Below are positions 4,234 through 30,849 of a stretch of DNA of 64,000 nucleotides, one piece after another. Both the position numbers and the translations under genes were made by a program. Source of the stretch: Lutimonas saemankumensis (GTDB lineage: Bacteria; Bacteroidota; Bacteroidia; Flavobacteriales; Flavobacteriaceae); the NCBI RefSeq assembly GCF_020171465.1, contig NZ_JAIUZR010000005.1, positions 62,001-126,000 of the forward strand, given 5' to 3'. The notes beneath the pieces are model-generated. The model made no database searches. It saw nothing but the letters and a program-made list of their open reading frames with translations, and was not told where the DNA came from. Each line of letters begins with the position of its first letter. The stretch's first letter is position 1.

Positions 4234-4307
4234 GGTTTGGTAGTTCAGCTGGTTAGAATACCTGCCTGTCACGCAGGGGGTCGCGGGTTCGAGTCCCGTC
4301 CAGACCG
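4234..4307 (+). tRNA. tRNA-Asp (anticodon GTC)
   Basis: The 74-nt cloverleaf has acceptor strands GGTTTGG and CCAGACC (one U-G pair), a D arm GTTCAGCTGGTTAGAAT, an anticodon loop CTGTCAC with GTC in the middle, and a GGTTCGAGTCC T arm. The discriminator is G, as tRNA-Asp requires. CCA is not encoded (CAA follows). The T arm and 3' end are the integration target: copies lie at 24504, 27813 and 30727. The tRNA is intact because the inserted element carries the same 3' end. Confidence 0.97.
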
Positions 4308-4405
4308 CAACTTTTTTAAGAAACAATAGTTGTGTTGTTAACATTAAGAGTTCACTCTTAAATAGTTAGCTAATGAAAAACTTCAGGGAAATCTGAGGTT
4401 TTTTT
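4283..4405 (+). repeat. att copy 1 (tRNA-Asp 3' end plus its terminator)
   Basis: Starting in the T arm, this 123-base stretch recurs at 30727-30849 (first 90 bases identical, then two mismatches) and from 4289 to 4354 at 24504-24569 (66 bases identical). Its first 23 bases from 4289 recur at 27813-27835. It is read as the tRNA-proximal attachment site of the island. Weak similarity to copy 4 continues for roughly another 45 bases. Confidence 0.9.
4376..4405 (+). terminator. Terminator of tRNA-Asp
   Basis: Stem CTTCAG (4381-4386) with CTGAGG (4393-4398), extended by A/T pairs, followed by a run of T. The same hairpin is duplicated within att copy 4, and altered hairpins follow copies 2 and 3. 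Confidence 0.75.
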
Positions 4406-4542
4406 GTTTTTGGGGGTGTATGAACCTTTATGCCTCTTTCTCTACTCACTATTTCATGTAAACCCCTTTATTGAATAAGGGTTTGACACTATAATCTTCT
4501 TTCTGAAGGGTAATCCATTATATATCTTTTTTAACCCTTGCA

Positions 4543-4580
4543 AGGTGCGCTACGAGGTGCGCTAATTTCTCGAGGTGCGC
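4543..4580 (+). repeat. Three direct repeats before the integrase (candidate arm-type sites)
   Basis: AGGTGCGC occurs at 4543-4550, 4555-4562 and 4573-4580, 12 and 18 bases apart, in a short GC-rich island just before the integrase start and about 240 bases from the att core. Direct repeats in this position fit arm-type binding sites for the N-terminal domain of the integrase. They could also be operators controlling its expression. Confidence 0.55.
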
Positions 4581-4608
4581 AATTATTCTAACTTTAAAAT
4601 TATTCGAA

Positions 4609-5808
4609 ATGTCAATATTAAAACTATACATCAGATTTACTGTTAAGTCAACTGAACTGAGCAAAACAAATCTTGCACCTATCAGGTGTAGAATTACCTA
4701 CAACAAACAACGCAAGGATTTCTCAACAGGAATCAGGGTTAATCCAGACCATTGGGACCCTAATAAACAGAGACTTCTTGATCAATCAGATCAGGAAGAA
4801 ACTACCAACATGCAACTAAGCCTTATTGAGAACAAAATCAGTAAGGCTTTTTTAATGCTTCAAGTTGGAGAAGAACCATTTACAGTACAGGATATTTATG
4901 ACGCCTACAAGGGTAAAACCCTAGAAAAGGAGCTGGGTATATTGGAGGTATGGGACCTGCATAATGAGCGTATGGAAAGGCTTATTGGCAAGGAAATAGT
5001 CTATGTCACCTACCAGAAATACCTGGAGTCTCAGCGGCATCTAAAAGACTTTATCAGGCATCAATACAAGGTGTCAGATAAGCCACTTAGAGGGCTTAAA
5101 ATGAGCTTTATCAATGAATATGCCTATTACCTTAGAACAGTCAAAAACTTTCAACAAAGCACCTTAAATAAGGCCATTCAGAGGATGCGTAAGGTGGTGA
5201 AATTTGCCATTGGACATGACTATCTGGACAAAGATCCCTTTCTTTTATATAGGGCTAAATCAGTCAAAAAAGAGTTGGTATTTCTAACTGTTGAGGAGCT
5301 TAAGAAATTGGAGAAATCAACTTTTGAAATCAAGAGATTAGAAGTCATTAAGGATTGCTTTGTTTTCTGTTGCTATACAGGTCTTGCCTTTAAGGAAATG
5401 ACCAGTTTAAAGAAGGAGCATATTGTCAAAGGATATGATGGAGAGGATTGGATCAAGATGAAAAGGCAAAAGACTCAGAAGGAGCTGTCAGTACCATTGC
5501 TTCCCAAGGCTAAGAAGCTATTGAGGAGGTATAAATCAGATAGTGATCAGTTACTTCCTGTGACAAGTAATGCCAGATTCAATGGCTACCTCAAGGAAAT
5601 AGCTGATCTGGTTGGGATAGAGAAAAGACTGACCCATCATGTAGCCAGAAGGACATTTGCCACTACTGTACTGCTATTGAACAATGTACCTATGGAGGTA
5701 GTTTCTGAATTATTGGGGCATTCTAAGATGGCAACGACTCAACAGAGCTATGGGAAGATTGTTCAGAGGAAGGTAGGTGAGGAGATGAAGAGAATAAGGG
5801 ATGATTAA
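4609..5808 (+). CDS. Tyrosine recombinase / site-specific integrase
   Basis: 399 residues, cytosolic, expected to cut and join DNA at the tRNA-Asp att sites. The order is an arm-DNA-binding domain (about 1-90, with DFSTGIRVNPDHWD), a SAM-like core-binding domain (about 110-205) and the catalytic domain (about 222-395). Catalytic residues visible: K288, H344-x-x-R347, H371 and nucleophile Y381 (QQSYGKIV). The first arginine of the box I motif is replaced by alanine (TGLA260FKEM), as in the IntDOT branch of Bacteroidota integrases, which also lacks it. The gene lies directly beside the tRNA, reads away from it, and is preceded by three AGGTGCGC repeats and followed by a hairpin terminator. Confidence 0.95.
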   Translation: MSILKLYIRFTVKSTELSKTNLAPIRCRITYNKQRKDFSTGIRVNPDHWDPNKQRLLDQSDQEETTNMQLSLIENKISKAFLMLQVGEEPFTVQDIYDAYKGKTLEKELGILEVWDLHNERMERLIGKEIVYVTYQKYLESQRHLKDFIRHQYKVSDKPLRGLKMSFINEYAYYLRTVKNFQQSTLNKAIQRMRKVVKFAIGHDYLDKDPFLLYRAKSVKKELVFLTVEELKKLEKSTFEIKRLEVIKDCFVFCCYTGLAFKEMTSLKKEHIVKGYDGEDWIKMKRQKTQKELSVPLLPKAKKLLRRYKSDSDQLLPVTSNARFNGYLKEIADLVGIEKRLTHHVARRTFATTVLLLNNVPMEVVSELLGHSKMATTQQSYGKIVQRKVGEEMKRIRDD

Positions 5809-5810
5809 CT

Positions 5811-5842
5811 AAAATCCAGCTATAGAAATATGGCTGGTTTTA
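5811..5842 (+). terminator. Terminator after the integrase gene
   Basis: CCAGC (5816-5820) pairs with GCTGG (5833-5837), flanked by AAAAT and TTTTA. It begins 3 bases after the integrase stop. Confidence 0.6.
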
Positions 5843-5913
5843 CTGTTTACCGTAAATAACCTTTATGCTGAAGGGCTACTTTTGATTCTTATAAAGTCTA
5901 AATTCAAATTTTC

Positions 5914-6159
5914 ATGAAAGCACTTTTTGTTTCACTTTATGGAGTATTTGCCATTACTGCTATTATTACACATATATGGACCGTGATAATTGCATTCACG
6001 GAAAGTGGATTTATAGGAGGTATTATGACTCTATTACTCCCATTTCTTGCAGAATTATATTGGATGTTTAACATGTTTGGAGAGAATAATATCTATGCTT
6101 TTATAGCTTTAGCTCATTTAATTTTAGCCATTCCATTTTCAATGTTGAGCAAAGAGTAA
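5914..6159 (+). CDS. Small membrane protein, unknown
   Basis: 81 residues, almost all hydrophobic. Two or three membrane segments are visible: about 4-26 (FVSLYGVFAITAIITHIW), 34-52 and 60-76. No family is recognised. The start ATG at 5914 is the first in frame after the integrase terminator. It is followed 29 bases later by a gene for a small secreted protein, so the two may be one cargo transcription unit of the island. Its role cannot be told from the sequence. Confidence 0.55.
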   Translation: MKALFVSLYGVFAITAIITHIWTVIIAFTESGFIGGIMTLLLPFLAELYWMFNMFGENNIYAFIALAHLILAIPFSMLSKE

Positions 6160-6188
6160 AATCGAAAATAAAAATCCACTATTCAATT

Positions 6189-6596
6189 ATGAAAAATTTC
6201 AAAACATTATTAGTCAGTATTGTTGTGCTACTCTCATTTAAAAGTTACTCTCAAGCCATTAAATATTATGATTCGGACTATTCAATAAAAGTTAAAATGG
6301 ATAAGTATCAAAGCACAGATGGAGGAGAATATCAGGGTGCTCTTCAAGAAAACATTAGATTAATACACGATAAATCAAAATCCACTCTTCAGATAATACT
6401 TTCAGACTATGACAAAGTAGTCCATTTGTTTAAAAATGTAGAATACCATGAAATATTTTATAATGATGGTAATAAATACATTGCCTACACAGCAAATAAA
6501 GATGGGATGCCATACTTTATTTCTTTTGGAAAAAATTTAATTAAGATAGATAATAGGGTAAAAAAGTCGGTAATTGCATTTCACCTTAAAAACTGA
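6189..6596 (+). CDS. Small secreted protein, unknown
   Basis: 135 residues. The N-terminus (MKNFKTLLVSIVVLLSFKSYSQ) is a typical Bacteroidota signal peptide cut after SYSQ, so the mature protein of about 113 residues is periplasmic or secreted. The mature part is rich in charged and aromatic residues and has no cysteine, known motif or repeat. It follows the small membrane protein by 29 bases. No family is recognised. Confidence 0.6.
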   Translation: MKNFKTLLVSIVVLLSFKSYSQAIKYYDSDYSIKVKMDKYQSTDGGEYQGALQENIRLIHDKSKSTLQIILSDYDKVVHLFKNVEYHEIFYNDGNKYIAYTANKDGMPYFISFGKNLIKIDNRVKKSVIAFHLKN

Positions 6597-6793
6597 TCTG
6601 TGTGAAAAATATGGAAAAGTTCAAAATTGGAGCATTAAAATGATTCAAATTTTAAAAGAATAGTAGAAGGCTTAGAGGTTCTCCTTTGTGCATTTAGGAA
6701 GGTATTTTCTATGGAATTGACATAAATCATATTGAATCTTATGACGATAATCTATTTTTATAGATTATTCAAATTTAATCAGTAGTAAGTAAG

Positions 6794-7819
6794 ATGAACA
6801 AGCCTATAAAAAAGTATACAATCGAAGAATTTTCAAATATAGAATTGGATCAAGTTGATCCAGGTAATTTTGTTAATAAACAAAGTTGGGATTCTCTGAT
6901 AATAAAAATGAAAGAGATTAAAAATCTGTTAGATGAAATGATTCACATAATTGAATTGAATGATGAAATTCCTGATTCCTTGAAGTCCAGGTCTAGAGCA
7001 TATATAGCAACGTTTACATCTTATTTAAATTCAATTACAAAAGAAGAAGAAAAAAAGGATGGATCTCAATTAGCTAGAGAAAAGGAACAATTAATAGTTA
7101 GAATTACGGGTTGGTGTAGAGAATTAATGGAAAAGACTAACAATAAATCTGATGAACTCAGTTTCTTCGAAACATTTTCTGCCATTAAGAATTTAGACAA
7201 AAGTTCGGGAACAATTGATTTTGATGAAATAAATAGATTAAGAGAGAAATCAACAGCTGACGCAGATAGTATTAATAGAATTTTGAGGGAAGTTCAAAAA
7301 AAAGGATCTAAAGAAACTGTTTCTGACTATGCGGAAATATTTAAAAGGGAATCAGATATTAACAGAAAAGCATCAAATATCTGGTTAACTATAGGTATCT
7401 GTACTTCAGTCATTTTTATTACGTTTTTATTCCTTTATAATTTCAATGATAAGTTTCCTACCCAAGAATTAATCCCAGGGGAAAATACTATTGTAATTTA
7501 TAATATTGGAAATATATTAACGAAAATTTTAATCTATGCCATTTTCATATTTATTATAAGTTTTTCTTTTAAACAATATTCCATAAGAAGACATATATCC
7601 ACTGTGAATAAGCATAGGCAGAATGGAATGGATTCTTTTAAAATTTTTATTGAATCAATTAACAGTGAGGATGTAGAGACTAGACATACGTTAATGTTAC
7701 AACTAGCTAAATCAATTTATGAGCAAACATCTTCTGGATATATTGGAGATAAAAATTCAAATGTTAATTCTGGAATTGTTGAAATCACCAAAATGATTCG
7801 AGGCAATAATGAATCATGA
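6794..7819 (+). CDS. Membrane protein with helical cytoplasmic region, unknown
   Basis: 341 residues. The first ~190 residues are charged and predicted helical, with a likely coiled-coil character around residues 85-190. Two membrane segments follow, about 197-218 (IWLTIGICTSVIFITFLFLY) and 238-257, and then an ~80-residue cytoplasmic tail. There is no signal peptide and no enzyme motif. It stands alone, 183 bases before the restriction-modification operon, in strongly AT-rich DNA. A sensor or effector of a defence system is conceivable from position alone, but nothing in the protein shows it. Confidence 0.6.
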   Translation: MNKPIKKYTIEEFSNIELDQVDPGNFVNKQSWDSLIIKMKEIKNLLDEMIHIIELNDEIPDSLKSRSRAYIATFTSYLNSITKEEEKKDGSQLAREKEQLIVRITGWCRELMEKTNNKSDELSFFETFSAIKNLDKSSGTIDFDEINRLREKSTADADSINRILREVQKKGSKETVSDYAEIFKRESDINRKASNIWLTIGICTSVIFITFLFLYNFNDKFPTQELIPGENTIVIYNIGNILTKILIYAIFIFIISFSFKQYSIRRHISTVNKHRQNGMDSFKIFIESINSEDVETRHTLMLQLAKSIYEQTSSGYIGDKNSNVNSGIVEITKMIRGNNES

Positions 7820-8002
7820 TTAATTTAATATAACTTGGTTGCTTTATTTCAATCGCAGGAGGATAGGGTATTTTTATAATTACCTTGAATTTTAAACAAA
7901 AACTTCTAGCTTTTGATAGGTATTGCACAGCAACCAATAGTTAAGTAGCTTAGGGGTTTGAAAAAGAAGATTTACAAACAAAATTTACCTTAGAATATAA
8001 TT

Positions 8003-9478
8003 ATGATCACAGGAGAATTAAAGTCGCAAGTTGATAAAATATGGGAAGCCTTTTGGACAGGAGGGATATCTAATCCACTATCTGTTATTGAGCAGTTTAC
8101 CTATTTACTTTTTATAAGAAGATTGGATGAGCGTCAATTGCTGGAGGAGAAAAAAGCAAATTTGGTTGGGATACCCATTAAAGATGAAATATTCACGTCA
8201 GCTCAAAAGGAATTGCGTTGGAGTTCATTTAAAAACAAAGATCCTGAGTCTATGTTTGAACTGTTTGTAAAGCCTATGGTGGATGATATGACAGTATTTG
8301 ATCATATGAAACAGGTGGGTCACTCTGCAGGCGTATTTGCTGATTTTATGAGTAAGGCTAATTTTATTATTGCTACGCCAAGACTACTGGATCAAGTGGT
8401 ACAACTTATTGATAAGATCAATATGGAAGATAGGGATACTAAAGGTGATCTCTATGAATATATGCTTTCTAAAATTGCATCCGCTGGTACCAATGGTCAG
8501 TTTAGAACACCCAGACATATTATCAGAATGATGGTCGATATGGCTAAGCCTAAAAAGGATGATATTATCTGTGATCCATCATCTGGTACAGCAGGTTTCT
8601 TGGTAACAGCAGGGGAATACTACAGAGATAATCATGAAGACTGGTTTTTAGATAAAGACTTTAGAGATCATTTTAATAATGAAATGTTTAATGGGGTAGA
8701 GATTGATGATACCATGATTAGAATTGGGGCTATGAACCTACAATTACATGGTATTGAAGGACCAAATTTGATTAAAAACAATGCCCTTAGTGAAAGTCTC
8801 GCAGATATCAGAGATCAATACACCTTGATACTGGCAAATCCACCTTTTAAAGGGGCATTAGATTATGATGCAGTTGAAGGCTCAATACTTAAAACCGTCA
8901 AGTCTAAAAAGACTGAATTGCTCTTTTTAGGATTGATGCTCAGGATGCTTAAAACAGGTGGGAGATGTGCAGTAATTGTGCCTGATGGGGTATTATTCGG
9001 AAGCTCTAAAGCCCATAAGCAAATTAGACAGGAAATCATTGAAAACCATAAACTAGATGCGGTTATTTCTATGCCAAGTGGGGTATTTAAACCTTATGCA
9101 GGAGTAAGTACAGCGGTGCTATTTTTTACCAAAACAGGTACTGGAGGTACTGATAAAGTTTGGTTCTATGACATGCAGGCTGATGGTTATAGTTTGGATG
9201 ATAAAAGAAATGAAATCAAAGAAAATGACATACCCGATATTCTTTCTAGATATCATAATATGGATGAGGAATCATCAAGAGCAAGAACTGACAAAAGTTT
9301 CTTAGTGCCTTTTGATGAGATCAAAGAAAATGATTGGGATTTATCCATCAATAGGTATAAAGAAATCGTCTATGAAGAAATAGAGTATGACCCGCCAAAA
9401 GTCATCATAGAGCAGATTGAAACTTTGGATAGAGAGAGAAATGAGGCATTGGAGGCTTTAAAAAAGATGTTGGGATGA
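8003..9478 (+). CDS. hsdM: Type I restriction-modification system, methyltransferase subunit
   Basis: 491 residues. HsdM uses AdoMet to methylate adenine N6 in the target chosen by HsdS, and forms M2S (modification) and R2M2S (restriction) complexes. The HsdM N-terminal helical domain (about 1-130) is followed by the N6-methyltransferase domain with GQFRTP (165-170), AdoMet-binding DPSSGTAGFL (191-200) and catalytic NPPF (279-282). Length is normal. It overlaps hsdS by 4 bases (ATGA), a sign of translational coupling, and starts the operon hsdM-hsdS-unknown-hsdR. Confidence 0.96.
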   Translation: MITGELKSQVDKIWEAFWTGGISNPLSVIEQFTYLLFIRRLDERQLLEEKKANLVGIPIKDEIFTSAQKELRWSSFKNKDPESMFELFVKPMVDDMTVFDHMKQVGHSAGVFADFMSKANFIIATPRLLDQVVQLIDKINMEDRDTKGDLYEYMLSKIASAGTNGQFRTPRHIIRMMVDMAKPKKDDIICDPSSGTAGFLVTAGEYYRDNHEDWFLDKDFRDHFNNEMFNGVEIDDTMIRIGAMNLQLHGIEGPNLIKNNALSESLADIRDQYTLILANPPFKGALDYDAVEGSILKTVKSKKTELLFLGLMLRMLKTGGRCAVIVPDGVLFGSSKAHKQIRQEIIENHKLDAVISMPSGVFKPYAGVSTAVLFFTKTGTGGTDKVWFYDMQADGYSLDDKRNEIKENDIPDILSRYHNMDEESSRARTDKSFLVPFDEIKENDWDLSINRYKEIVYEEIEYDPPKVIIEQIETLDRERNEALEALKKMLG

Positions 9479-10680
9479 AGTGGGATACTGAATTAGAAAA
9501 AATTGGAGCAAAAACTAAGTATCCTATTGGGGATGGTGATCATGGATCTATTAAACCTCAAGTGTACCAAGATAATGGTATTCCTTATATTAGGGTTGCA
9601 GATATTTCTAGAGAAGGTTACATAGATAAATCAAAGATGGTCTATATTCCAGAGGAAGTAAATGAAGCTAATCCTAAAAGTTTTTTATATCCAGGTGATA
9701 TTGTAATATCCAAGACAGGAGCAACAATTGGCAAAGTTGCAATCATTCCAGATGATATCAAGTTAGCTAATACAACTGCATCAATAGGTAAAGTATCACT
9801 TGATTTTGACCTTGCTAACGCAAGGTTTGTTTTATGGTGCATGAAATCTCAACACTTTCAATCTCAAATGTGGAGAGTTAGTCATAAATCAGCACAACCA
9901 GGTTTTAATGTGAAGGACTTGAAAAAGTTTAAAATCCCCCTCCCTCCCTTAGACCAACAAAAAAAGATAGCTGCTATTTTAGATGCTGCAGATGCGTATA
10001 GACAAAAAACTAAAGCACTGATTAAGAAATATGATGAGCTTACCCAAAGTTTGTTTCTTGATATGTTTGGGGATCCTGTGACTAATCCTAAAGGATATAA
10101 GATTGTGACTCTAGGTGAAGTAACCTCAAAAATTACAGATGGGGTGCATTTTAAACCTGATTATAAAGAAAGTGGTGTAGAGTTTATATCTGTTAAGGAT
10201 ATTACCACAGGGGTATTAAAATTTGATAATTGTAAATTCATATCCAAAGAGGACCATGACAAGTATTATAAAAGATGCAATCCTGAATACTTAGATATTT
10301 TATATACTAAAGTAGGTGCTACTTACGGAAGACCAGCCATAGTGAATGTTAAAAGAGAATTTAGTCTTTACGTTAGTGCAGCATTGATAAAACCTATCAA
10401 AGAAATAATAAACCCATACTATTTAAAAGATGCAATGGCGAATCCAGCTATTAAACGTCAAGCAGATAGATCAATAAAAGGGATTGGTGTTCCTGATTTA
10501 CATTTAAATATGATACGAAAGTTTTTAATTCCACTTCCTTCAATGCAGGAACAAAACCAATTTGCTGAAAGAGTTAAGGTTATAGAAGCTCAAAAAGGTC
10601 AAGCACAAGACAGTTTAGCCCAAGCAGAAAATTTATTTAACAGCCTTTTACAAAGGGCATTTAAAGGGGAGCTGGTATGA
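9475..10680 (+). CDS. hsdS: Type I restriction-modification system, specificity subunit
   Basis: 401 residues with the two-fold layout of HsdS. The first target-recognition domain (about 1-150) ends in FKIPLPPLDQQKKIAAILD and a helical spacer (about 160-195). The second domain (about 200-350) ends in FLIPLPSMQEQNQFAERV and a second helical spacer ending FKGELV. Each domain reads half of a bipartite site, which cannot be inferred here. The gene overlaps hsdM (ATGA) and the next gene (ATGA, 10677-10680). No inverted repeats or extra hsdS fragments that would mark a shuffling locus were noticed. Confidence 0.95.
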   Translation: MKWDTELEKIGAKTKYPIGDGDHGSIKPQVYQDNGIPYIRVADISREGYIDKSKMVYIPEEVNEANPKSFLYPGDIVISKTGATIGKVAIIPDDIKLANTTASIGKVSLDFDLANARFVLWCMKSQHFQSQMWRVSHKSAQPGFNVKDLKKFKIPLPPLDQQKKIAAILDAADAYRQKTKALIKKYDELTQSLFLDMFGDPVTNPKGYKIVTLGEVTSKITDGVHFKPDYKESGVEFISVKDITTGVLKFDNCKFISKEDHDKYYKRCNPEYLDILYTKVGATYGRPAIVNVKREFSLYVSAALIKPIKEIINPYYLKDAMANPAIKRQADRSIKGIGVPDLHLNMIRKFLIPLPSMQEQNQFAERVKVIEAQKGQAQDSLAQAENLFNSLLQRAFKGELV

Positions 10681-11255
10681 GGTTAATATTGCCGATTCTT
10701 ACAAATAATCGATCAGGTAGTTTATCTGATTTTATTTCTTTTTGGAGCAATATTTATTCTTACGATGATTCTGAAAAATATGAGTTCATTCACAATGATA
10801 TTCTATCAAAATCAGACCTAACTCAATTATATGAATGGAAAAATGGGATGAAACTCAGTGTTTCCAAGACCAATAGTTTGAAATCTAAGATTATAAAAAA
10901 ATTGGATATTATTAATAGTCTTAAAGCTGAAGAAAACATTGATATTGATGAATTTTTGAAAGAGTTTAAGAATGTATCAGTAGTCTGGAAGATATTTCTG
11001 TTGCATATTATTAATCCAAAAATCTATCCCATATATGATCAACATATTCATAGGGCTTTTAGGTTTATAAATAATCAATCTACTGAAGGGATAAATGCAA
11101 GTATAAATGAGAAAGATAAATTAAATTTTTACTTTGTAGAATATTTACCGTTTGTTACTAGGACAGGAGAAACAGATCTTAAGAAAATGGATGAAGCCTT
11201 TTTTGCCTTTGGTCAATTTATCAACATTGGGAATCAAAAAATATTAGCAGAATAA
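10677..11255 (+). CDS. Unknown protein inside the hsd operon
   Basis: 192 residues, cytosolic, no signal or membrane segment. It overlaps hsdS by 4 bases (ATGA) and ends 3 bases before hsdR, so it is made with the restriction system. The segment SVVWKIFLLHIINPKIYPI followed by YDQHIHRAF (about 102-129) resembles the helix-hairpin-helix region of DNA glycosylase-like folds, but the catalytic Lys/Asp pattern was not identified and the likeness is only by eye. It may be a regulator, an anti-restriction control protein or a DNA-binding accessory. The name cannot go further than hypothetical. Confidence 0.7.
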   Translation: MRLILPILTNNRSGSLSDFISFWSNIYSYDDSEKYEFIHNDILSKSDLTQLYEWKNGMKLSVSKTNSLKSKIIKKLDIINSLKAEENIDIDEFLKEFKNVSVVWKIFLLHIINPKIYPIYDQHIHRAFRFINNQSTEGINASINEKDKLNFYFVEYLPFVTRTGETDLKKMDEAFFAFGQFINIGNQKILAE

Positions 11256-11258
11256 AGA

Positions 11259-19971: not shown

Positions 19972-20053
19972 GGGGTTGGATGATATTTGAATTAATTTGG
20001 TACAGAAAGTTTGATTTACTGTTCCTAATTTATTTTGAGTCGAGCTCTACACT

Positions 20054-21216: not shown

Positions 21217-21223
21217 AGTGAAT

Positions 21224-21253
21224 AAAAAACCCCTCACGATTAAGTAAGAGGTT
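21224..21253 (-). terminator. Terminator for the 50-residue protein gene
   Basis: Read on the minus strand, AACCTCTTAC pairs with GTGAGGGGTT (8 of 10 positions) and is followed by TTTTTT. It lies 41 bases after the stop of the small minus-strand gene. Confidence 0.45.
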
Positions 21254-21294
21254 CACTATGGGAAATTATAATTTGTCAGGCATTTCTGCCTTCT

Positions 21295-22492: not shown

Positions 22493-22897
22493 AGTTTCTA
22501 TTTGTTCGATTAACTACAAAAATACTTTCAGGTGATTAATAATCAGACGACATAACATGTCCATTAATGGTGTAAGGAGCGGACTACAAATTTGGTATGA
22601 GCTGCAGCACTTGCATATTCAGAGTAGTATCTTAGATTCTTGTCTGGTTAGGACTAGTTTTCTTAATTTTTAAATAAATTGCTGTCTTCAATACGTCCAA
22701 ATATAATGACAAAAATTAGTTGAGCTCGAATCTGATGTCAGAGTATTTTTTATTCATATCCTATATAAACCTCACGTAACTAGAGCCTTATAAAGACTAA
22801 AATAAATGGGACTGACTAAAAATACCTGAAAACCATTAGTTTTTGTTAACGATTATTGATTATTTTTGAGATAAACCAACCTTAATTCCCTCAGATC
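22493..22897. other. Gene-free stretch
   Basis: About 405 AT-rich bases between divergent genes. Apart from the possible -7 box TATTTTTG (minus strand) for the lipoprotein gene, nothing distinctive was seen. Confidence 0.4.
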
Positions 22898-24475
22898 ATG
22901 AAACAGTTCCTCATTTTATTTATTTTATTTCTGTTTTCTTCAGTTACAATAGCGCAAGAAGGAATTCGATATATTAACTTTGATCAACCCATAGTTCAAA
23001 ATGCAGTCCCAAGTAGAGATGGGAACAATATTTATCATTTTTATTTTGAGTTTAATTGGGTTAATGAAATTTCATCCTACAGTGATGAATTGAAACCTAA
23101 AATTGAAGAGTTACAAATATATGAGTCAGGTACTGAAAACATTATCAAATCAAGCAAAGCACCGTTCAATCAAGATAATCAGATTGAGTTCAGAGTTAAG
23201 AAATCAGATATAGATAGGTTTAATCAAATAGAATATGCGGTTAAATGGCATATCAATGATGCTTCAGGAGAGAATATGCTTACTAAATTTACAAAGAGAC
23301 GAACTATGAATGTAAATTTCAAAACTGATCCTAAACTTATAGTTCAAATATCTGACGAAAGGATTTATTATTTAGATGATATTAATAAACCCCGAATTAA
23401 GATTAAAACTAATCATAACGGAGCTTCCGTTGATGAGCTTACACTAAGATTAAGGAACGATCCAGAATCTGCAGTTGTTGCTAGAATAAATAAAACTGTA
23501 ACGCAGTTAAATAATAACAAGTATTCAGAACTTGTCTTCGATTCAACAGAAGGAGAGGCAGAAATACAGGAAGGTAAAACCTACTATCTTTTCGGAAATG
23601 TGAGTACTCCAAATTTAAATGCAAGAATTTTTGAAAACAATACATACCAGATTTACAAAAGAGAACAATATTACATAAAACCTTTAGACGACGGAACGAA
23701 GACAATAAAGGTAAAAGGAAACTTGGATAAACAAATAGTTTTGGATGCTACGGGTAAAGTATCTGAAGTAAAAGCCACTTTGAAGTTAGGTGATGGTGGA
23801 AAAAAAGAATATTCTTTAGACGATCTAGATAACAATAGATGGGAACTAAAAATACCAGGAAACACCAACATTCAATATGGGACCTATGTTTTGGAGATTA
23901 CGGGCAATGGCAGTAATGGACAGCCAATGAAACCAACATCCTTTTCTTATGTTAAAACTCCAATTAAACGTAAAATTATTCAAATGGAAATCAAGGATGG
24001 TATTTATAAAGTTAACGCAGAGTTTACAGAGACTCCAACTAATAATGTTTATTTAGTAATAGACGATTTTGATGTAATGATGAATAAAGATGCAGCGGAT
24101 TCTAAAAAGTATTCTGTTAGTTTTGCATTCGATGATAATACATTACAATCAATAAGTAATAAAATCAAAGCTTCGGCAAAGAATACTAAAAAAGTATTAC
24201 TAACAACAAAAATAGATGATATTAATGATGAATCATACCTAGCAACAAATGCAGTTATAATCGACAAAAATAAACTTGCAGATATGAAGAAGAAAAGTGA
24301 AGTTAAAAAATATTTGGAAGATATTGGATTTCAAGAGAATGTTGATAAGCTTGCCAAAAGTATTATGACAGAGTTGAAGAAAGAAGATAATGATCAAGAT
24401 TGGGGGGCTAATGTATGGTCCTCATTAGTTGAGTGGGCCCCAAAAGCGATTCCGCTTGTTTTAATGTTACTTTAA
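22898..24475 (+). CDS. Large secreted protein of unknown function
   Basis: 525 residues. A signal peptide (MKQFLILFILFLFSSVTIAQ) is cut after TIAQ. The mature part is probably a row of beta-sandwich domains: repeated stretches such as RMNVNFKTDPKLIVQIS, PRIKIKTNHNGASVDELTLRL and TKTIKVKGNLDKQIVLDA have the alternating pattern of Ig-like folds. The last ~20 residues (WAPKAIPLVLMLL) end in a hydrophobic segment that may tether it to a membrane. No Cys and no catalytic motif. It is the last gene of segment A, ending 28 bases before att copy 2. The protein may be surface cargo; no family is recognised. Confidence 0.65.
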   Translation: MKQFLILFILFLFSSVTIAQEGIRYINFDQPIVQNAVPSRDGNNIYHFYFEFNWVNEISSYSDELKPKIEELQIYESGTENIIKSSKAPFNQDNQIEFRVKKSDIDRFNQIEYAVKWHINDASGENMLTKFTKRRTMNVNFKTDPKLIVQISDERIYYLDDINKPRIKIKTNHNGASVDELTLRLRNDPESAVVARINKTVTQLNNNKYSELVFDSTEGEAEIQEGKTYYLFGNVSTPNLNARIFENNTYQIYKREQYYIKPLDDGTKTIKVKGNLDKQIVLDATGKVSEVKATLKLGDGGKKEYSLDDLDNNRWELKIPGNTNIQYGTYVLEITGNGSNGQPMKPTSFSYVKTPIKRKIIQMEIKDGIYKVNAEFTETPTNNVYLVIDDFDVMMNKDAADSKKYSVSFAFDDNTLQSISNKIKASAKNTKKVLLTTKIDDINDESYLATNAVIIDKNKLADMKKKSEVKKYLEDIGFQENVDKLAKSIMTELKKEDNDQDWGANVWSSLVEWAPKAIPLVLMLL

Positions 24476-24503
24476 ATCTGAGGCGTTAAAAGAATTATGC
24501 TTG

Positions 24504-24640
24504 TCGAGTCCCGTCCAGACCGCAACTTTTTTAAGAAACAATAGTTGTGTTGTTAACATTAAGAGTTCATCCGCCAAGGTCGGACAGGCTATTAAATAGT
24601 TAGCTAATGAAAAACTTCAGTTATCACGGAGTTTTTTTTT
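24504..24640 (+). repeat. att copy 2 (segment A / segment B boundary)
   Basis: 24504-24569 is identical to 4289-4354 in and after tRNA-Asp. Bases 24570-24591 (starting TCCGCCAAGG, forming a weak TCCG/CGGA hairpin) replace three bases of copy 1. Then TTAAATAGTTAGCTAATGAA and the following CTTCAG match again (to 24620), ending in an altered hairpin and a T run. The T arm upstream of TCGAG is missing, so it is not a tRNA. Confidence 0.9.
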
Positions 24641-24700
24641 GTTTTAAAGCATGTCCAAATCCATTCTTCACATATAAGACATATTTGAACAAAGGATTAA

Positions 24701-24850
24701 GATGATTTGGCGCTTTATTTTACCTTCAAATGGACTCTAAAAAACCAACGAAAAGTGGAGTTTGACCTAGTAGACATCGTTGAATTTAATATCTCGGGCA
24801 AAATAAAAAAACTGAAAATAATTTATGATACTGAATTGGCTAGAAAATAG
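24701..24850 (+). pseudogene. 3' remnant of an NTF2/SnoaL-like gene
   Basis: An open stretch of 49 codons to a TAG, directly after a stop in the same frame, with no start codon. The text FDLVDIVEFNISGKIKKLKI then IYDTELARK is the C-terminal beta-strand region of nuclear transport factor 2-like (SnoaL/ketosteroid-isomerase fold) proteins. About the first two thirds of such a protein are absent. It lies just inside att copy 2, so the rest may have been lost when segments recombined. Confidence 0.6.
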
Positions 24851-24940
24851 GTATCTGAATTAAATTCCTAAGTTTATAAGCTTCCACAAACATCGATTGT
24901 TGATATCTCTGATAATCTTTAAGCTAATTTTTGAATAAAT

Positions 24941-25267
24941 ATGAGAGTAATAAGTCTCTTAACCTTTCTGATATCTTTTGTGATATTAGAGGCGAGCGAT
25001 CTGTATTCCCAAGAAATTATTCATGATCCTGAACTTTCTACAATGGGAGAAATTGTTGGGGATAAATGGAAAACCAATGAAGGGGCAGTTCAAAAGAAGT
25101 TGGGCGCCTTAGAAAAAGAACATGGGAAGAAACTTAATATCATTAGTATCCTTGTAGATGATGTTGGTTATACTGAGTTGGGTGTTTATGGTAGTGGAAA
25201 GCTTAGAGGAGCTCCAACTCCCAATCTAGATAAAATGGCTCACCAGGGAATGAAACTTATGAGTTGA
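24941..25267 (+). pseudogene. Truncated sulfatase gene (5' end only)
   Basis: 108 codons: a signal peptide ([20 protein letters not shown]), then [16 protein letters not shown] and [14 protein letters not shown], the N-terminal metal-binding start of formylglycine sulfatases, where the DD pair binds calcium. It stops at TGA 25265-25267, far before the CxPSR site that would become formylglycine, so no active enzyme (about 450-550 residues) can be made. The next gene ends 22 bases later on the opposite strand. Whether the short frame is still expressed is unknown. Confidence 0.75.
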
Positions 25268-25288
25268 AAGCTTTATTTATAATGTGAT

Positions 25289-26215
25289 TTAAGTTTGAAC
25301 TGATTTTCGAAGATGTTGTGAAGGTAGTTTACCGAAAAGGTTTTTATAATCTTTAGCGAATTGACCTGAATGCCAAAATCCGAATGCCAGAGTGACATCA
25401 ATTAATCTATTATACTGATTTGATTGGATCTTTCGTTTGATTTCATTCATTTTATAAAATAGAATGTACTTTTTAGGTGACACCCCGGTAAGTTCTGAAA
25501 AGGCATATTGAAGGCTCCTTTCACTAACGCCCAGCCGATTACACAACTCTTTTACAGTGTGGCAATCTTCAGGTTCATTGTGAATTAAATCTTTGGCTCT
25601 TTTAAAGGTTCTGTTGTTGGCTTTGAATCTGAGATCTCTTTTCTTTTCACTCTTTATAATTGAGCTGATGATCATTTTTGGAACTTCATATGAAATCAAA
25701 TGTTCGTTCAGCATTTGGCTCTGACAAATATGAAGAACCCAGAACTGCAGAATTTTGGCACTCCTTTCTGAAATATGGAAATACTCCTCTTGATTAATAT
25801 CATCAATAAAATTAGGGTGCCCGAGATCTAATGCCAATTTATTGAGATATTCCTGTTTGATTGAAACGGGAATTCCTACAAAATTAGATTGGCTAATGCA
25901 AAAATGTTCCATCCCACCTCTTAAAATCCCAATTGTATTCCCTTTAAATCGAATATTACGCCAAATGAAATCCTGATAGAAATTTCCTGGAATAAGAAAT
26001 GTGAGGTAATTTTTTAGACCAGTCCCTTCTTGAATGATCTTCTGATTCATTTGATGATGGCTCAATATGACATTGGGTGTAATAACTTGTGTAAGGGAAC
26101 CCTCAAATACCCCTTTACTTATCTGTGAACATTCCAGATTTGCTTGCTTTGTAAAATCTGAATAACAATCAAAGTCATTGAAATTGAATTGCTCGATTAC
26201 TGGTGATAGGTTCAT
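25289..26215 (-). CDS. AraC family transcriptional regulator
   Basis: 308 residues, cytosolic. The N-terminal ~180 residues resemble the beta-sandwich sensor part, without a membrane segment. The C-terminal ~100 residues hold the two helix-turn-helix units: CHTVKELCNRLGVSERSLQYAF (about 219-240) and the second near ENKRKIQ... followed by VTLAFGFWHSGQFAKDYKNLFGKLPSQH, which matches the AraC signature. It is divergent from the metallo-hydrolase gene, 155 bases apart, and very probably controls it. Confidence 0.88.
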   Translation of the reverse strand: MNLSPVIEQFNFNDFDCYSDFTKQANLECSQISKGVFEGSLTQVITPNVILSHHQMNQKIIQEGTGLKNYLTFLIPGNFYQDFIWRNIRFKGNTIGILRGGMEHFCISQSNFVGIPVSIKQEYLNKLALDLGHPNFIDDINQEEYFHISERSAKILQFWVLHICQSQMLNEHLISYEVPKMIISSIIKSEKKRDLRFKANNRTFKRAKDLIHNEPEDCHTVKELCNRLGVSERSLQYAFSELTGVSPKKYILFYKMNEIKRKIQSNQYNRLIDVTLAFGFWHSGQFAKDYKNLFGKLPSQHLRKSVQT

Positions 26216-26370
26216 GGGTTTTCGGGTTTTAGACCTTTTTAAAGATAAGAAAAATTTAAATTTGGCTATAGTGTGGTACTTTTAAATCTTCTAGACTCTT
26301 ATCTTAGGATCACCAATCACTCTTTTTTAATATCAAGCTAATTAATGACTTTCATTACAATCAAAACATT

Positions 26371-27714
26371 ATGAAATTAAAAACTTTATTCCTTACCTTA
26401 ATACTGCTATCATATTTTATAAATGCTCAAAACCAAGATGCTGAACTCTTAAAAGCGAAAGAATTTTTTGAAAATGCCGGAGTTCCCGGGGACAAATGGG
26501 TAGAAGGAGAGACCTTGTATCCGAATATTCGGCCTGCCAAACATTTTCACTCCAGTATGTTATACTACCCGGGAACGGAAGAACTCCATGAAGATGAGGT
26601 ACGTGTGACTTTTATGGGTTCAAGTTATTCTCCCTCTCAGACCCAATCCGGAATGAGTATACTGGTTGAACTGGGCAACGGCGAAAAGTTTGTCTTTGAC
26701 TTAGGTATTGGATCACTTAGAAACTACAATTCATTTAGTATTCCATTCAATACGATCAATCATGTTTTTCTAACCCACCTGCATATGGATCACGTGAGTG
26801 ACCTTCCTTATCTTATGATGTTTAGACCTATCCAGGGAGGTTGGACACCTCTGCATGTTTATGGCCCAAGCGGATCAGAACCACAATACGGCACGGCCCA
26901 TATGATGAAGCATATGATGGAAATGACAGCCTGGCACCAGGATAGTTTCCATTCCTGGCCCATAGGTGAAGGGTATGAAACCAAAGTGCATGAATTTGAT
27001 TTTATGGATGAAGGAGGAGTAGCCTATGAAGCGAATGGCGTAAAAATAACGCATTGGCCAACCTCACACACGAAGGATGGAGCTACAAGTTATAGGCTTG
27101 ATTGGAACGGCAGGAGTATTTGTTATACTGGTGATAATCGACCAAACAGCCTTACCATTAAAAAATGTCAAAATGTGGACATGTTAATAAGTGAAGTTCA
27201 AACTGCAACTGTTTCATTGTCGGCACAGTCACTAGGTATGCCTCCTGCTATGGCGGCATATACCATTGATACATCTCATTCTCCGGGGTATGGTTTGGGA
27301 TATATTTTAAATGAAGCCAACCCTACGGTTGGTGTTGCGACTCATTATGGCTATGACGATATCTTTATAAATGAAACCGTTGCCCAGGTCAGGTATCATT
27401 ACAAAGGAGCCTTTGCCTTTGGTGCACCGGATTTGGTGACCTTCAATATTCACGGCGACGGTAAAGTATGGTGGCGAGAAGGTGTAGCAGGCAATTCTAT
27501 TCAAGTACCCAAGCCTCATATGACCTCTGAAACGATTACATTTCCAGCACCGAAGCATCAGGTTTATGATGTGATCAATGATACAGTAGAAAAAAATGAA
27601 ATCCCAATGGAACTTTGGTATCCTAAAGGACATATGCCTCAAAGAGTTAAGGAATGGCCAATTACTAAAGACTTAACGCTTCCTAATCCATGGGCTCCAA
27701 GTAAAAAGAATTGA
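26371..27714 (+). CDS. Exported MBL-fold metallo-hydrolase (ribonuclease Z/arylsulfatase-like)
   Basis: 447 residues with a signal peptide (MKLKTLFLTLILLSYFINAQ), so it acts in the periplasm or outside. The two-zinc motif is HLHMDH (136-141) after FDLGIGSLRNY; later ligands are in WPTSHTKDGA, YTGDNRPN and ATHYGYDD. It resembles the large MBL group that NCBI names GntH-like, but that name is from memory and the substrate is unknown. An AraC regulator is transcribed divergently 155 bases upstream, so expression is probably induced by a small molecule. It is flanked by att copies. Confidence 0.8.
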   Translation: MKLKTLFLTLILLSYFINAQNQDAELLKAKEFFENAGVPGDKWVEGETLYPNIRPAKHFHSSMLYYPGTEELHEDEVRVTFMGSSYSPSQTQSGMSILVELGNGEKFVFDLGIGSLRNYNSFSIPFNTINHVFLTHLHMDHVSDLPYLMMFRPIQGGWTPLHVYGPSGSEPQYGTAHMMKHMMEMTAWHQDSFHSWPIGEGYETKVHEFDFMDEGGVAYEANGVKITHWPTSHTKDGATSYRLDWNGRSICYTGDNRPNSLTIKKCQNVDMLISEVQTATVSLSAQSLGMPPAMAAYTIDTSHSPGYGLGYILNEANPTVGVATHYGYDDIFINETVAQVRYHYKGAFAFGAPDLVTFNIHGDGKVWWREGVAGNSIQVPKPHMTSETITFPAPKHQVYDVINDTVEKNEIPMELWYPKGHMPQRVKEWPITKDLTLPNPWAPSKKN

Positions 27715-27812
27715 AAGCTTATTGTTTAGGTCTATAATTGATTGAATTTAAACTATATCAGAACTGAATATCCAAGATAATCACATACTCTTAAATATGA
27801 TAATTCACGGCG

Positions 27813-27835
27813 TCGAGTCCCGTCCAGACCGCAAC
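27813..27835 (+). repeat. att copy 3 (segment B / segment C boundary)
   Basis: 23 bases identical to 4289-4311 (TCGAGTCCCGTCCAGACCGC and on). Beyond them only patches such as TAGTTGT and TCTTAAATAGTT remain. The GATAGCTATC palindrome at 27886-27895, inside a CCTGATAGCTATCGG hairpin, replaces the normal terminator. Confidence 0.8.
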
Positions 27836-28005
27836 ATAAATAGTTGTATTCTTAACTTAAGCATCATATTCTTAAATAGTTTCCTGATAGCTATCGGAAT
27901 GAAGTTTTTTGAATTCAAAAGGTAATACACAATCTGAATTTCAATAATCAGTTTTTTTAATTAAATTTGATTTAGTACAATAATTAAAAATCTTAAATCG
28001 ATTTT

Positions 28006-28404
28006 ATGAAAAAGCTATTATTTCTTCTTGCTATATCTTTAATTTTTTCATGCTCAGATGATGAAGAGAGCACGAGATTAATGTATAATATTTCATATAG
28101 AGCAGTTGCTTCAGATGGAGCCACACTGAACAAAGTTGAATATATGGATGAAAAAGGTGATCTCATAGAATTAACCAATGTTAGTTCTCCATGGTCCATT
28201 AATCTTCAAGTTCGGGCAGGATTAGCATTGGAGGCCAGAGCTTATGGTGATGTTCCTTACCAAGGATCCTTAAGTATAACTGCCAATTGGACACCTGAGG
28301 GAGGATTAAAACAATCAGAAACGGTCACCTTGCCAAATGACCAGCCTGACACAGTTATAAATAATGGAAGTGTAGAAATATCGGGCAGAACCTTACCGGA
28401 TTAA
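28006..28404 (+). CDS. Small lipoprotein, unknown
   Basis: 132 residues. MKKLLFLLAISLIFSCSDDEE is a signal with the lipobox IFSC (Cys 16) followed by the acidic residues that often direct Bacteroidota lipoproteins to the surface. The remainder looks like a single beta-sandwich (NISYRAVASDGATLNKVEY, then SPWSINLQVRAGLALEARA). A TAAATTTG box lies at 27962-27969. No family is recognised. Confidence 0.6.
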   Translation: MKKLLFLLAISLIFSCSDDEESTRLMYNISYRAVASDGATLNKVEYMDEKGDLIELTNVSSPWSINLQVRAGLALEARAYGDVPYQGSLSITANWTPEGGLKQSETVTLPNDQPDTVINNGSVEISGRTLPD

Positions 28405-28456
28405 AGATATCCCCGTGTTCACTGAAGCATGTGAATTTACATGAGTAAAAAGTTGA

Positions 28457-29236
28457 TCAATAATTTCGCTCATCAAGCTCATCTTCGATCTCTGTCAAGA
28501 TCTTTAAAACGTGCTCTCGAATTGTATTGTAAGAATTCGATTTCAAGCTCCATAGCGTCATTACATAAAGTCCCATTCGACTTTCAAATTCTCGAATTTT
28601 AAAAACATCTCTAACATCTCCTTCAAAATTAGATTTCGATGGTAATGCATCAATAGTATTGTTTAGCCCTAATTCACCCGGAAAATTAAGAAACGGGGTA
28701 TGAACAACCAAAATATTTAGAAGAGCCGTTCGATGTTCAAAAGTTTCTACTTCTTGACGAGAAGTGTTATTCAAAATAATGAACCATTCCGACAGTTGAT
28801 TTCTCAAGGTAGTTCGACTAATTATTGAGAGATTCCCTGAATTGATTAAGTCTTCAAGAATACCTGGACTTGGAACGTACTTGGTGGCATTCTGCATACA
28901 TCCTGCCAAATGGATGGATGCTGCTTGTTCAGAATCGGGAATGTTATTCTCGCCAGTCCATTGCAATACGGTTTCTGAGGATAACAACATATTTTCGTAG
29001 GTCTTAATACTTTCATCAATTATTTCAAGATTCTTTGTGAATTCACTCTTAAGAGCGACTAAATAAATGATCTCTGTATCTCTTTTTTTCCTGGCCTCAT
29101 TCCAATTATTAATCTGCAGGGCTATTAAAATCCCAATCACTACCAGCACAATCTCACCAATGGCATATCTACTATACTTGAAGAACTGATTATCATCAGC
29201 CAATTTTTTTCGGATTTTACGGAAGAAGGGGATCAT
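28457..29236 (-). CDS. DUF6090 family membrane protein
   Basis: 259 residues. It starts MIPFFRKIRKKLADDNQFFKY, the DUF6090 signature, and has one membrane helix at about 27-44 (GEIVLVVIGILIALQINNW). The rest is a long, likely periplasmic, helical domain (LVALKSEFTKNLEIIDESIKTYENML) of unknown role. A paralogue with the same N-terminus lies at 39380. The two share an upstream leader (see the TATATTTAA findings). The gene is convergent with the preceding lipoprotein gene. Confidence 0.8.
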   Translation of the reverse strand: MIPFFRKIRKKLADDNQFFKYSRYAIGEIVLVVIGILIALQINNWNEARKKRDTEIIYLVALKSEFTKNLEIIDESIKTYENMLLSSETVLQWTGENNIPDSEQAASIHLAGCMQNATKYVPSPGILEDLINSGNLSIISRTTLRNQLSEWFIILNNTSRQEVETFEHRTALLNILVVHTPFLNFPGELGLNNTIDALPSKSNFEGDVRDVFKIREFESRMGLYVMTLWSLKSNSYNTIREHVLKILTEIEDELDERNY

Positions 29237-29254
29237 TGTTTTGGTTGTTGATAC

Positions 29255-29264
29255 TTAAATATAG
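29255..29264 (-). promoter_or_regulatory. Motif CTATATTTAA before the DUF6090 gene
   Basis: Read on the minus strand, CTATATTTAA lies 19 bases before the start codon and is followed by ATCAACAAC, the same as at 40148-40157. It recalls a -7 box (TAnnTTTG) with a changed end. No clear -33 TTG was found. Confidence 0.4.
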
Positions 29265-29309
29265 TGAAAACATCTATCTTAGTATTGAATTACAGATATT
29301 TAGCTGATA

Positions 29310-29891
29310 ATGTACGCTCAACTCTTAAAAATATTAGGCAATTTTGCCAATCTTGATGAATATGAAACGGAACTAATCAAGTCCAGTTTTAAACCACATT
29401 CATTATTAAAAGGAGAATTTTTTTTGAAAGAAGGCACGGTGTGTAAAAATGTTGGATTTCTATATAAGGGCCTGGTAAGATATTTTGTGCATAAGGATGG
29501 GGAAGAATCTACATTTGAGTTTACTTGTGAAGGAGAGTTTATTGGGGATTATCAAAGCTTTCGAAATGCTTCATTGTCAGTTCAAAATATTCAAGCTATT
29601 GAAGATTGTGAGATGCTTATTATTGATTATCCAAAAATTCAAAACATCTATAATACAACGAATAATGGTAATCTGATTGGACGTCAGATAATAACGCATC
29701 GATTTGAAATCATGGTCAATCAAATTCTTGAAGTTTATATGCAAAATCATGAAGATCGCTACACGAGTTTTATTGACAAGTATTATGGATTGACTCAAAG
29801 AATTCCTCAGTATTTGATTGCGTCATATGTTGGTGTAAAACCAGAATCTCTAAGTCGTATTAGAAGAAGATTTGCTAAAAATATTTCTTAA
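29310..29891 (+). CDS. Crp/Fnr family transcriptional regulator
   Basis: 193 residues. The cyclic nucleotide-binding beta-barrel is seen in residues about 20-110 (LLKGEFFLKEGTVCKNVGFLYKG, STFEFTCEGEFIGDYQSF). The C-terminal part contains a helix-turn-helix typical of the short Bacteroidota Crp group (QRIPQYLIASYVGVKPESLSRIRRR). No Fe-S cysteines. It is followed 48 bases later by the membrane protein gene and may regulate it. Confidence 0.85.
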   Translation: MYAQLLKILGNFANLDEYETELIKSSFKPHSLLKGEFFLKEGTVCKNVGFLYKGLVRYFVHKDGEESTFEFTCEGEFIGDYQSFRNASLSVQNIQAIEDCEMLIIDYPKIQNIYNTTNNGNLIGRQIITHRFEIMVNQILEVYMQNHEDRYTSFIDKYYGLTQRIPQYLIASYVGVKPESLSRIRRRFAKNIS

Positions 29892-29939
29892 CTCAGGTTA
29901 ACGAATAATTGATAGTGTTCTGTTTAAATTGCAATTCAA

Positions 29940-30536
29940 ATGAAAATGCAACAGAAAATGAACAGCGAATACAAACACCTCGAAAAGAAATTCCTTATAA
30001 AATGGGTTAAAGCTAATGGGATAGGATGGCTCGTGGGTTTTATTGGTGCTATTGTTATGTCTCATCTGGTCGTTAATATTTTCTATCCAAAAGAAACGAA
30101 TTTAATAGTAGGTCTTTGTATAGGGGCAAGTATAGGATATGCACAATGGTTTGTTTTAAAAGGAATGTTTAAAATAAGTAGTTTGTGGGGTCTGGTATCC
30201 ACCTTATGTTTAGGAATTCCATTCATCGCTATTGAATTAATGGATGAAAACGGATATGAACTTCCATCTTTCCAGGGAGATTATGAGTTTGTTTATCGAC
30301 TTATTTTTGGCCTGTTTATGGGTTTGGTAATTGGATCACTGCAAATGCAATTTTTAAAACCTTATTTCAAAAAAGCGGCTTGGTGGATCGCTGTAAGTTC
30401 CATGGGATGGGGTATTTGCTTTTTAGCATCCTCAGTACCAATGCCATTTTCTCTTCTGGGCTTATTACTTGGTGGAGTTTTATTGGGAGTTATAACAGGT
30501 TACGGTATGATCTGGATGAACAAATCTCAACCGTAA
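29940..30536 (+). CDS. Multi-pass membrane protein, unknown
   Basis: 198 residues from ATG 29940; an internal ATG at 29958 (MNSEYKH) could also be used. Six hydrophobic stretches are visible, including WLVGFIGAIVMSHLVVNIF, GLCIGASIGYAQWFVL, GLVSTLCLGIPFIA, LIFGLFMGLVIGSLQM and two glycine-rich C-terminal ones (LLGLLLGGVLLGVITGYG). No signal or motif. It forms a likely pair with the Crp-type regulator. Confidence 0.65.
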   Translation: MKMQQKMNSEYKHLEKKFLIKWVKANGIGWLVGFIGAIVMSHLVVNIFYPKETNLIVGLCIGASIGYAQWFVLKGMFKISSLWGLVSTLCLGIPFIAIELMDENGYELPSFQGDYEFVYRLIFGLFMGLVIGSLQMQFLKPYFKKAAWWIAVSSMGWGICFLASSVPMPFSLLGLLLGGVLLGVITGYGMIWMNKSQP

Positions 30537-30726
30537 TGTTGCCCTTTTCATAAGTAGATCCTATCCCATTTGATAATAGTTGTTTATGAGACTAAAATTA
30601 TGCTGTATTCTAATTTTCATTTAGGCATTGTACGTAGTCGAGAAGAAAAAATATTCAAGAGGGTTTTCTCAAAGATATATATGCAAATTAGAAGGGCAAA
30701 AGCGATTTATATTGTTTGATTCTTGA

Positions 30727-30849
30727 GCGGGTTCGAGTCCCGTCCAGACCGCAACTTTTTTAAGAAACAATAGTTGTGTTGTTAACATTAAGAGTTCACT
30801 CTTAAATAGTTAGCTACTAAAAAACTTCAGGGAAATCTGAGGTTTTTTT
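30727..30849 (+). repeat. att copy 4 (distal end of the island)
   Basis: Matches 4283-4405: 90 identical bases, then two mismatches, including the terminator hairpin. It starts at GCGGGTTCGAG, so only the T arm and 3' end of tRNA-Asp are present. Beyond it the DNA keeps weak likeness to the region after copy 1 (GAAC, TTATGCC, CTTTC). It is probably the original chromosomal tRNA end displaced by the first insertion. Confidence 0.9.

Follow-up and report, generated by a model that had tools for sequence, protein, structure and literature searches.

In Dehalococcoides, genomic islands lie in tandem behind one RNA gene, ssrA, with 20-bp repeats of the gene's 3' end as their borders; an integration module is present in 16 and absent from 15, the latter having been proposed as possible cis-mobilizable elements moved by accretion (PMC3146451). 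Additive flexible genomic islands have been reported in Methylophilaceae (PMC10872708), Alteromonas (PMC4119200) and Actinomarinales (PMC7771536, with cassette transfer between genera), and accretion involving cis-mobilizable elements is known for ICESt1-type elements (Pavlovic 2004, as cited in PMC3146451). An array of this already known type (additive islands, accretion, cis-mobilizable elements) is present at the tRNA-Asp gene of Lutimonas saemankumensis, in a 64,000-nucleotide stretch of its 3.58-Mb genome (the window; G000:C5:62001-126000). As in the ssrA islands, its segments are tandem, bounded by end repeats, and found both with and without integration genes. A tyrosine integrase and tRNA-Asp stand here in place of the serine recombinase and transfer-messenger RNA (tmRNA) of Dehalococcoides, and the repeated unit contains a further RNA gene, of a kind not described in the available parts of PMC3146451. 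The array shares with additive flexible islands the tRNA target of serial cassettes, the tRNA-end repeats and a content varying between close strains; it differs, as far as the excerpts of those reports go, in its flavobacterial host and in the integrase clade, integrase fragments and RNA-bearing repeat unit identified here. The resemblance to ICESt1-type accretion lies in integrase-less segments that are flanked by attachment (att) sites and adjoin an element with an integrase; unlike that case, no conjugation genes were recognised in the integrase-bearing segment, and the array of a relative (G012) has no helper integrase. Relative to the published work found, the RNA gene within the repeated unit and its link to the family's tRNA-Asp integrases appear to be new.

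A single tRNA-Asp was predicted by ARAGORN (Table 1). Comparison of the region 4200-4500 with the whole genome gave matches at four places only, with the full tRNA at one of them. All four share an exact 23-bp core, TCGAGTCCCGTCCAGACCGCAAC, every copy on the forward strand, and the chance expectation of one given 23-mer in 64 kb is about 2e-9 (an arithmetic estimate). Exact identity to copy 1 extends over 66, 23 and 90 bp in copies 2, 3 and 4, respectively, and alignment of copy 4 with copy 1 continues over 123 bp with two mismatches (read off the alignment). The cores delimit three segments, A, B and C, with core-to-core spacings of 20.2, 3.3 and 2.9 kb and GC fractions of 0.33, 0.37 and 0.34 (left flank 0.40, right flank 0.385). 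An initial annotation had described four copies of the tRNA 3' end delimiting three segments, with the same identity lengths and an integrase in A only, and each of these statements was borne out: integrase domains were found by Pfam in A, and tblastn at E <= 10 detected no integrase remnant in B or C.

Table 1. Features of the tRNA-Asp array (window coordinates; R2, refined model of the RNA gene)
Feature	Position	Strand	Evidence
tRNA-Asp(gtc), target	4234..4308	+	ARAGORN; Rfam RF00005
att core copy 1, last 20 bases of intact tRNA + AAC	4289..4311	+	exact 23-mer
RNA gene copy 1 (predicted)	4329..4405	+	R2 54.2 bits (in training set); fold z -3.5 (stretch 4309-4405)
Segment A: integrase, type I restriction-modification, helicase-like, AAA_24/Sak4-like, DUF3871 and lipocalin-like genes	4312..24503	+	not at same site in G012
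Tyrosine integrase of segment A	4609..5808	+	Pfam PF00589, PF17293, PF13102
att core copy 2	24504..24526	+	exact 23-mer
RNA gene copy 2 (predicted), 19 bp inserted in first hairpin	24544..24638	+	R2 41.1 bits (in training set); fold z -2.1 (stretch 24527-24645)
Segment B, without integrase	24527..27812	+	
att core copy 3, RNA gene behind decayed	27813..27835	+	exact 23-mer; fold z +0.2; no R2 match
Segment C, without integrase	27836..30732	+	
att core copy 4, chromosome-side end	30733..30755	+	exact 23-mer; G012 synteny from 30813
RNA gene copy 4 (predicted)	30773..30849	+	R2 48.3 bits (not in training set); fold z -4.2 (stretch 30756-30849)

Repeats of the tRNA 3' end at the segment borders, together with a conserved left flank and a differing right side at this one tRNA site across the genomes read, are features of an additive array of tRNA-targeted islands. 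We consider it highly probable that the array arose at the single tRNA-Asp gene by repeated site-specific insertion, with the tRNA tail and RNA unit rebuilt each time and B and C carried as passengers. A tyrosine integrase, whose cutting role we infer, would recombine within the terminal 14-23 bases of the tRNA gene. With every island would come a tRNA 3' end of its own and, behind it, the island's copy of the hairpin RNA gene, so that insertion would rebuild the tRNA end and the RNA at the tRNA and push the older unit to the right. Segment A, the sole segment still with an integrase, would be the newest arrival, while B and C would have lost their integrase or never had one and would have been moved by an integrase from a neighbour or in trans. 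B and C are att-flanked and lack both integrase and transfer genes, as cis-mobilizable elements do, and the integrase-bearing element adjoining them is segment A, as in accretion; the G012 array has no such neighbour.

The initial annotation gave the extent of the repeats correctly, but what it took for flanking DNA is a hairpin-rich, terminator-ended predicted RNA gene, which it had missed. In the gene, GTTGTGTTGTT precedes hairpins and a terminator, and a conserved stretch, GUUGUGUUGUU, is unpaired. Outside the genus, 30 of 46 places examined have the motif in the 160 bp that follow a tRNA-Asp tail (28 of 44 distinct ones, as L227 repeats L088 and L232 repeats L164), against a background of 0.011 per 160 bp. 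Individual folds of most cases outside Lutimonas give an unpaired 5' stretch, two hairpins and a terminator hairpin, and in Lutimonas a second stem encloses the first hairpin in most cases. The fold z-score of the hairpin region averaged -3.59 in 26 sequences, 23 of which fell below -2, compared with -0.26, -0.45 and -0.06 in controls placed 150, 300 and 450 bases further on. A first model, made from four sequences of two genomes and run against 89 sources at E <= 0.5, found 58 places, five of which are not directly behind a recognised tRNA tail (L092:88, L112, L224, L236 at a locus end, and the antisense L106:1308). Among 30 tRNA-Asp loci sampled from other Flavobacteriaceae (L083-L112), the RNA was found at 22, the same 22 by the first and the second model, most of which had trained the latter. 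The refined model, R2, also matches behind window copies 1, 2 and 4. Not counted at family loci were R2 matches overlapping a tRNA (L090, L093, L233, L098:1447) or weak ones of 24-28 bits (L055, L098:2734, L225:3477), nor were L218:13426 (27.6 bits) and the partial match L198:1670.

Base pairing is conserved across the alignment. Over the 26 pairs of the structure, 95.0% of the combinations were standard pairs (76.4% after shuffling), covariation was 0.403 (0.168 +/- 0.008 shuffled), and 192 cells were changed on both sides (47.6 shuffled; 16-39 for slid structures). Changes on both sides occurred in nine of nine pairs of helix 1, five of six of helix 2 and five of eleven of helix 3; these figures come from an alignment fitted to the model, which favours the structure and must be held against it, the fold z-scores being independent of that alignment. 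L229 and L230 (odd or cut terminator) and L012, which had no terminator, were left out of alignment A1.

With Rfam 15, the window and ten other RNA-bearing loci gave no match to the RNA at gathering score; the matches that did reach it in the loci scanned were tRNA, plus one ribosomal-protein leader elsewhere, and those below it were taken as chance. When phage DNA was searched with tRNA-Asp plus the RNA as query, no place covered 80% of the query, and the matches, 15 of 309 listed, lay within the tRNA gene or extended at most 18 bases past it. No paper found in literature searches described the RNA gene in its title or abstract. The small RNA (sRNA) Rfp18 of Flavobacterium psychrophilum is a structured RNA conserved across species for which a third stem-loop is mentioned (PMC9723704); the RNA gene is like it in description, being structured, flavobacterial and conserved between species. 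Rfp18 could be the same RNA, and if it is not, the RNA gene seems previously undescribed. The RNA is presumably transcribed and functional. At two loci (L104 and L106) there are two tandem tRNA-Asp genes, each with its own RNA gene behind.

The RNA gene accounts for a repeat that is longer than the tRNA tail, and the islands seem to protect a second gene in addition to the tRNA. In Lutimonas it starts about 6-20 bases behind the core. Tandem units were found in three genera outside Lutimonas, each made up of 14-23 bases of the tRNA's end, a terminator and the RNA. Such full units account for both RNA copies in L252 (Salinimicrobium), for the internal copy in L253, for two of the three in L254 and for three of the four in L255; the other RNA copies at these loci (among them L254:4930-5011 and L255:3267-3366) have no recognisable tRNA tail, which indicates that the RNA can persist alone inside islands. 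The window's copy 1 unit matches one internal G012 unit without a difference over 128 bp and another at 98.5% identity, and differs from the tRNA-proximal unit of G012, so that a change of island seems to bring another RNA allele next to the tRNA. Since the islands carry tRNA tail and RNA gene together, both appear to be rebuilt at each insertion. If insertion takes place in the tRNA tail, a new unit on the tRNA side and displacement of the old one are expected, and the observed alleles fit. We regard it as fairly probable that tRNA-Asp islands of the Flavobacteriaceae use a composite unit of the tRNA 3' end and a complete, undescribed regulatory RNA gene, each insertion replacing the resident RNA allele and storing the old one in the array; this would provide an island route for the spread and swapping of RNA alleles, with a copy number growing with the array. 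If the RNA is a regulator, the islands would rewire it at each landing.

Hairpin-rich repeats between short segments also call to mind integron cassettes, the hairpins folding in single-stranded DNA as a recombination site and the tRNA serving as a fixed entry site. Segments as short as 0.9 kb, often with one conserved hairpin-rich unit each and with unrelated cargo ends, are in keeping with such a system. The RNA gene, however, adjoins tRNA-Asp also in genomes with a single core match (for example G094, G071, G114 and G055), it has a terminator end and a conserved unpaired stretch, the first hairpins are missing from some copies, and segments can be as long as 20 kb. Integron integrases are not known to have an arm-binding domain, whereas the segment A integrase has one. 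An arm-less integrase fixed beside an attI site was not what was found (Arm-DNA-bind_5 is present, and the integrase fragments of G004 are scattered), and on this ground as well as on segment sizes an integron was rejected; an integron-like origin is very improbable.

The tRNA-Asp site is a genus-wide hotspot. Matches to a 20-base core pattern occurred in 14 of 22 genus genomes, with copies beyond the tRNA-proximal one in G000, G004 (Lutimonas halocynthiae CECT 8444), G012, G017, G013 and G009; a longer profile or the RNA model added further copies in G002, G005, G008 and G014. Among 100 sampled family genomes, more than three core matches were found in G000 and G012 only. Absence of an array elsewhere means little because most genus genomes are fragmentary drafts: on the right of the tRNA, the contig breaks off inside 2 kb in 10 of 12 drafts, as against one of 12 on the left. 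Relative to the window, the flanks of G012 are 94.3% (left, 2.0 kb) and 95.7% (right) identical, and between them only a 169-bp DUF6090 stretch is common besides the att units; none of A, B or C is present there as DNA. Copy 4 can be placed at the chromosome-side end of the array because synteny with the right flank of G012 begins at 30813, within copy 4. The initial annotation had likewise made copy 4 the probable original end, but its argument from likeness to copy 1 is not supported, since copy 1 also matches internal G012 units and the likeness follows from an element-borne unit. No genome lacking A, B or C singly, as it expected among relatives, was seen: neither B nor C was found whole as DNA outside G000 in the 22 genus genomes searched, the best match being 0.68 kb of C at 80% in G009. 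That the 26 kb form one composite element with internal repeats, as four copies in one orientation might suggest, is almost certainly wrong, and a single unit of this size was rejected, since segments are combined differently in relatives and suffix types vary between copies.

The array of G012 has at least six cores, the tRNA included (five at no more than one mismatch and a sixth at three), in addition to degenerate ones. It contains no integrase remnant, and the best-scoring integrase match in the complete G012 genome is only 25% identical. Among 20 cargo proteins scanned, none matched a mobility gene; they were ordinary enzymes, transporters and regulators or had no match. In G004, nine cores with at most three mismatches, besides as many as three further degenerate ones (9-12 copies), are accompanied by four fragments of the same integrase (residues 1-215, 1-65, 341-399 and 357-389), of which three follow a core or decayed core at 0.2-0.4 kb. 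All cores in the window, G012 and G004 arrays have one orientation. The att suffixes in G004 (for example L070, L069 and L068) are mostly direct repeats of a 7-bp type (cacttaacacttaac...) and not RNA, and one G009 copy is alike.

A 12-kb integrase-less segment of G012 (15474-27625 in reversed-stretch coordinates) recurs in G017: the 6,369 bp that reach its right end are 98.1% identical, and 1,493 bp at its left end are 97.4% identical. At the right junction the match continues up to and including the final base of the core, then breaks off; beyond it, the two genomes differ in suffix type and right neighbours. Chromosomal identity between G012 and G017 is 82-86% at five loci, 82, 86 and 95% at three, and 90% in the left flank. 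A weaker second case is a 1.2-kb piece of a G004 segment that is 88.5% identical in G017 (other matches between these genomes are 68-80%, save a 57-bp piece), and covers only the left third of a 3.5-kb G017 segment. The sharing between G012 and G017, with an exact core junction and different right neighbours, argues that integrase-less segments do spread, and it is a clean example of such a segment in two species with an exact att junction. Stacks that differ between species at one spot in this way illustrate how bacteria can exchange gene packages without an insertion enzyme in the package.

Several observations count against serial insertion with passenger segments and composite units. The contrast between segment and chromosome is not uniform, as G017 and G012 agree at 95% over one 6.1-kb chromosomal piece (still below 98%), and G017 is a gapped, 72%-complete draft that did not show the central part of the segment. 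Copy 3 lacks a foldable RNA (fold z +0.2, no R2 match), and three RNA matches in L251 follow no tRNA tail that can be recognised. Of the integrase relatives fetched, the closest (L222, 61%) has tRNA-Met, not tRNA-Asp, within reach. Finally, a conserved right-end integrase arm on the passengers was not found in the 300 bp upstream of 25 copies, which were unrelated save for four weak pairs and the common G012/G017 end.

The same arrays can be read as a fossil record, with B and C as the immobile remains of larger islands that lost their integrases by deletion. This would agree with the integrase fragments in G004, with the decay of the RNA behind copy 3, with the degenerate cores of the G012 and G004 arrays, and with a sulfatase in B that looks truncated by eye, a sign of internal deletion. 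Pure decay nevertheless remains a rather doubtful explanation of the whole, given the integrase-less 12-kb segment shared at 97-98% identity with an exact core junction and another right neighbour, and given that G012 has several segments in an array without any trace of an integrase. A second alternative, that homologous recombination between repeats of about 100 bp or between flanks (for example after DNA uptake) swaps segments with no need of an integrase, draws on copies that, between species, can share 128 bp without a difference and on the G012 array, present in a genome with no close integrase relative. It is unlikely, as the G012/G017 junction lies at the 23-bp core with suffix types differing beyond, the cores of the window, G012 and G004 are all in one orientation, and the repeated unit starts at the tRNA 3' end in other genera, as site-specific insertion predicts. 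Serial insertion would be compatible with islands of both kinds, some segments having probably spread without an integrase and others having eroded. Both alternatives of the initial annotation thus found support: serial insertion with integrase-less passengers in the G012 flanks without A, B or C and in the segment common to two species with different right neighbours, and decay of larger elements in the N- and C-terminal integrase fragments kept in the G004 array.

The integrase gene of segment A is intact in the window's strain and encodes Arm-DNA-bind_5, Phage_int_SAM_5 and Phage_integrase domains. A tRNA-Asp was present within the 1.5-kb flank of 11 of the 17 best-scoring family relatives fetched (L222-L238) and of none of the next 12; one relative with tRNA-Asp nearby is from Salinimicrobium terrae. 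A phage or plasmid carrier of the integrase was rejected, as phage and plasmid records held nothing at >=60% identity and IMG/VR no close relative. An 86% integrase relative is encoded on a contig of a metagenome-assembled genome labelled Deltaproteobacteria (L167, SMWS01000118.1), perhaps misbinned flavobacterial DNA.

The type I restriction-modification genes of segment A occupy 8003-14708, and no relaxase or conjugation gene was recognised in the 15 of its open reading frames that were scanned (ORFs; 11 compared with Pfam, three with PADLOC only and one with PHROGs only). Segment B contains a short ORF (24941-25267), an AraC-type regulator (25289-26215, reverse strand) and a metallo-beta-lactamase-fold protein (26371-27714); the product of the short ORF (108 amino acids) resembles a sulfatase N-terminus by eye and has no Pfam match. 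Segment C encodes a DUF6090 protein (28457-29236, reverse strand) and a cNMP-binding regulator (29310-29891), and two further ORFs were read by eye, a small one with a lipoprotein-like start (28006-28404) and a membrane-like one (29940-30536). To the right of the array, a hydrolase gene (31006-33072) is 87% identical to G004:C17:29187-31238, located on another contig in that genome, which is higher than the 77-81% found for the flanks. The start of the DUF6090 gene has clusters of matches every ~1-4 kb at G012:C1:559274-590437, G000:C4:72883-91382 and G004:C16:801328-813651, which are apparent tandem expansions outside the array.

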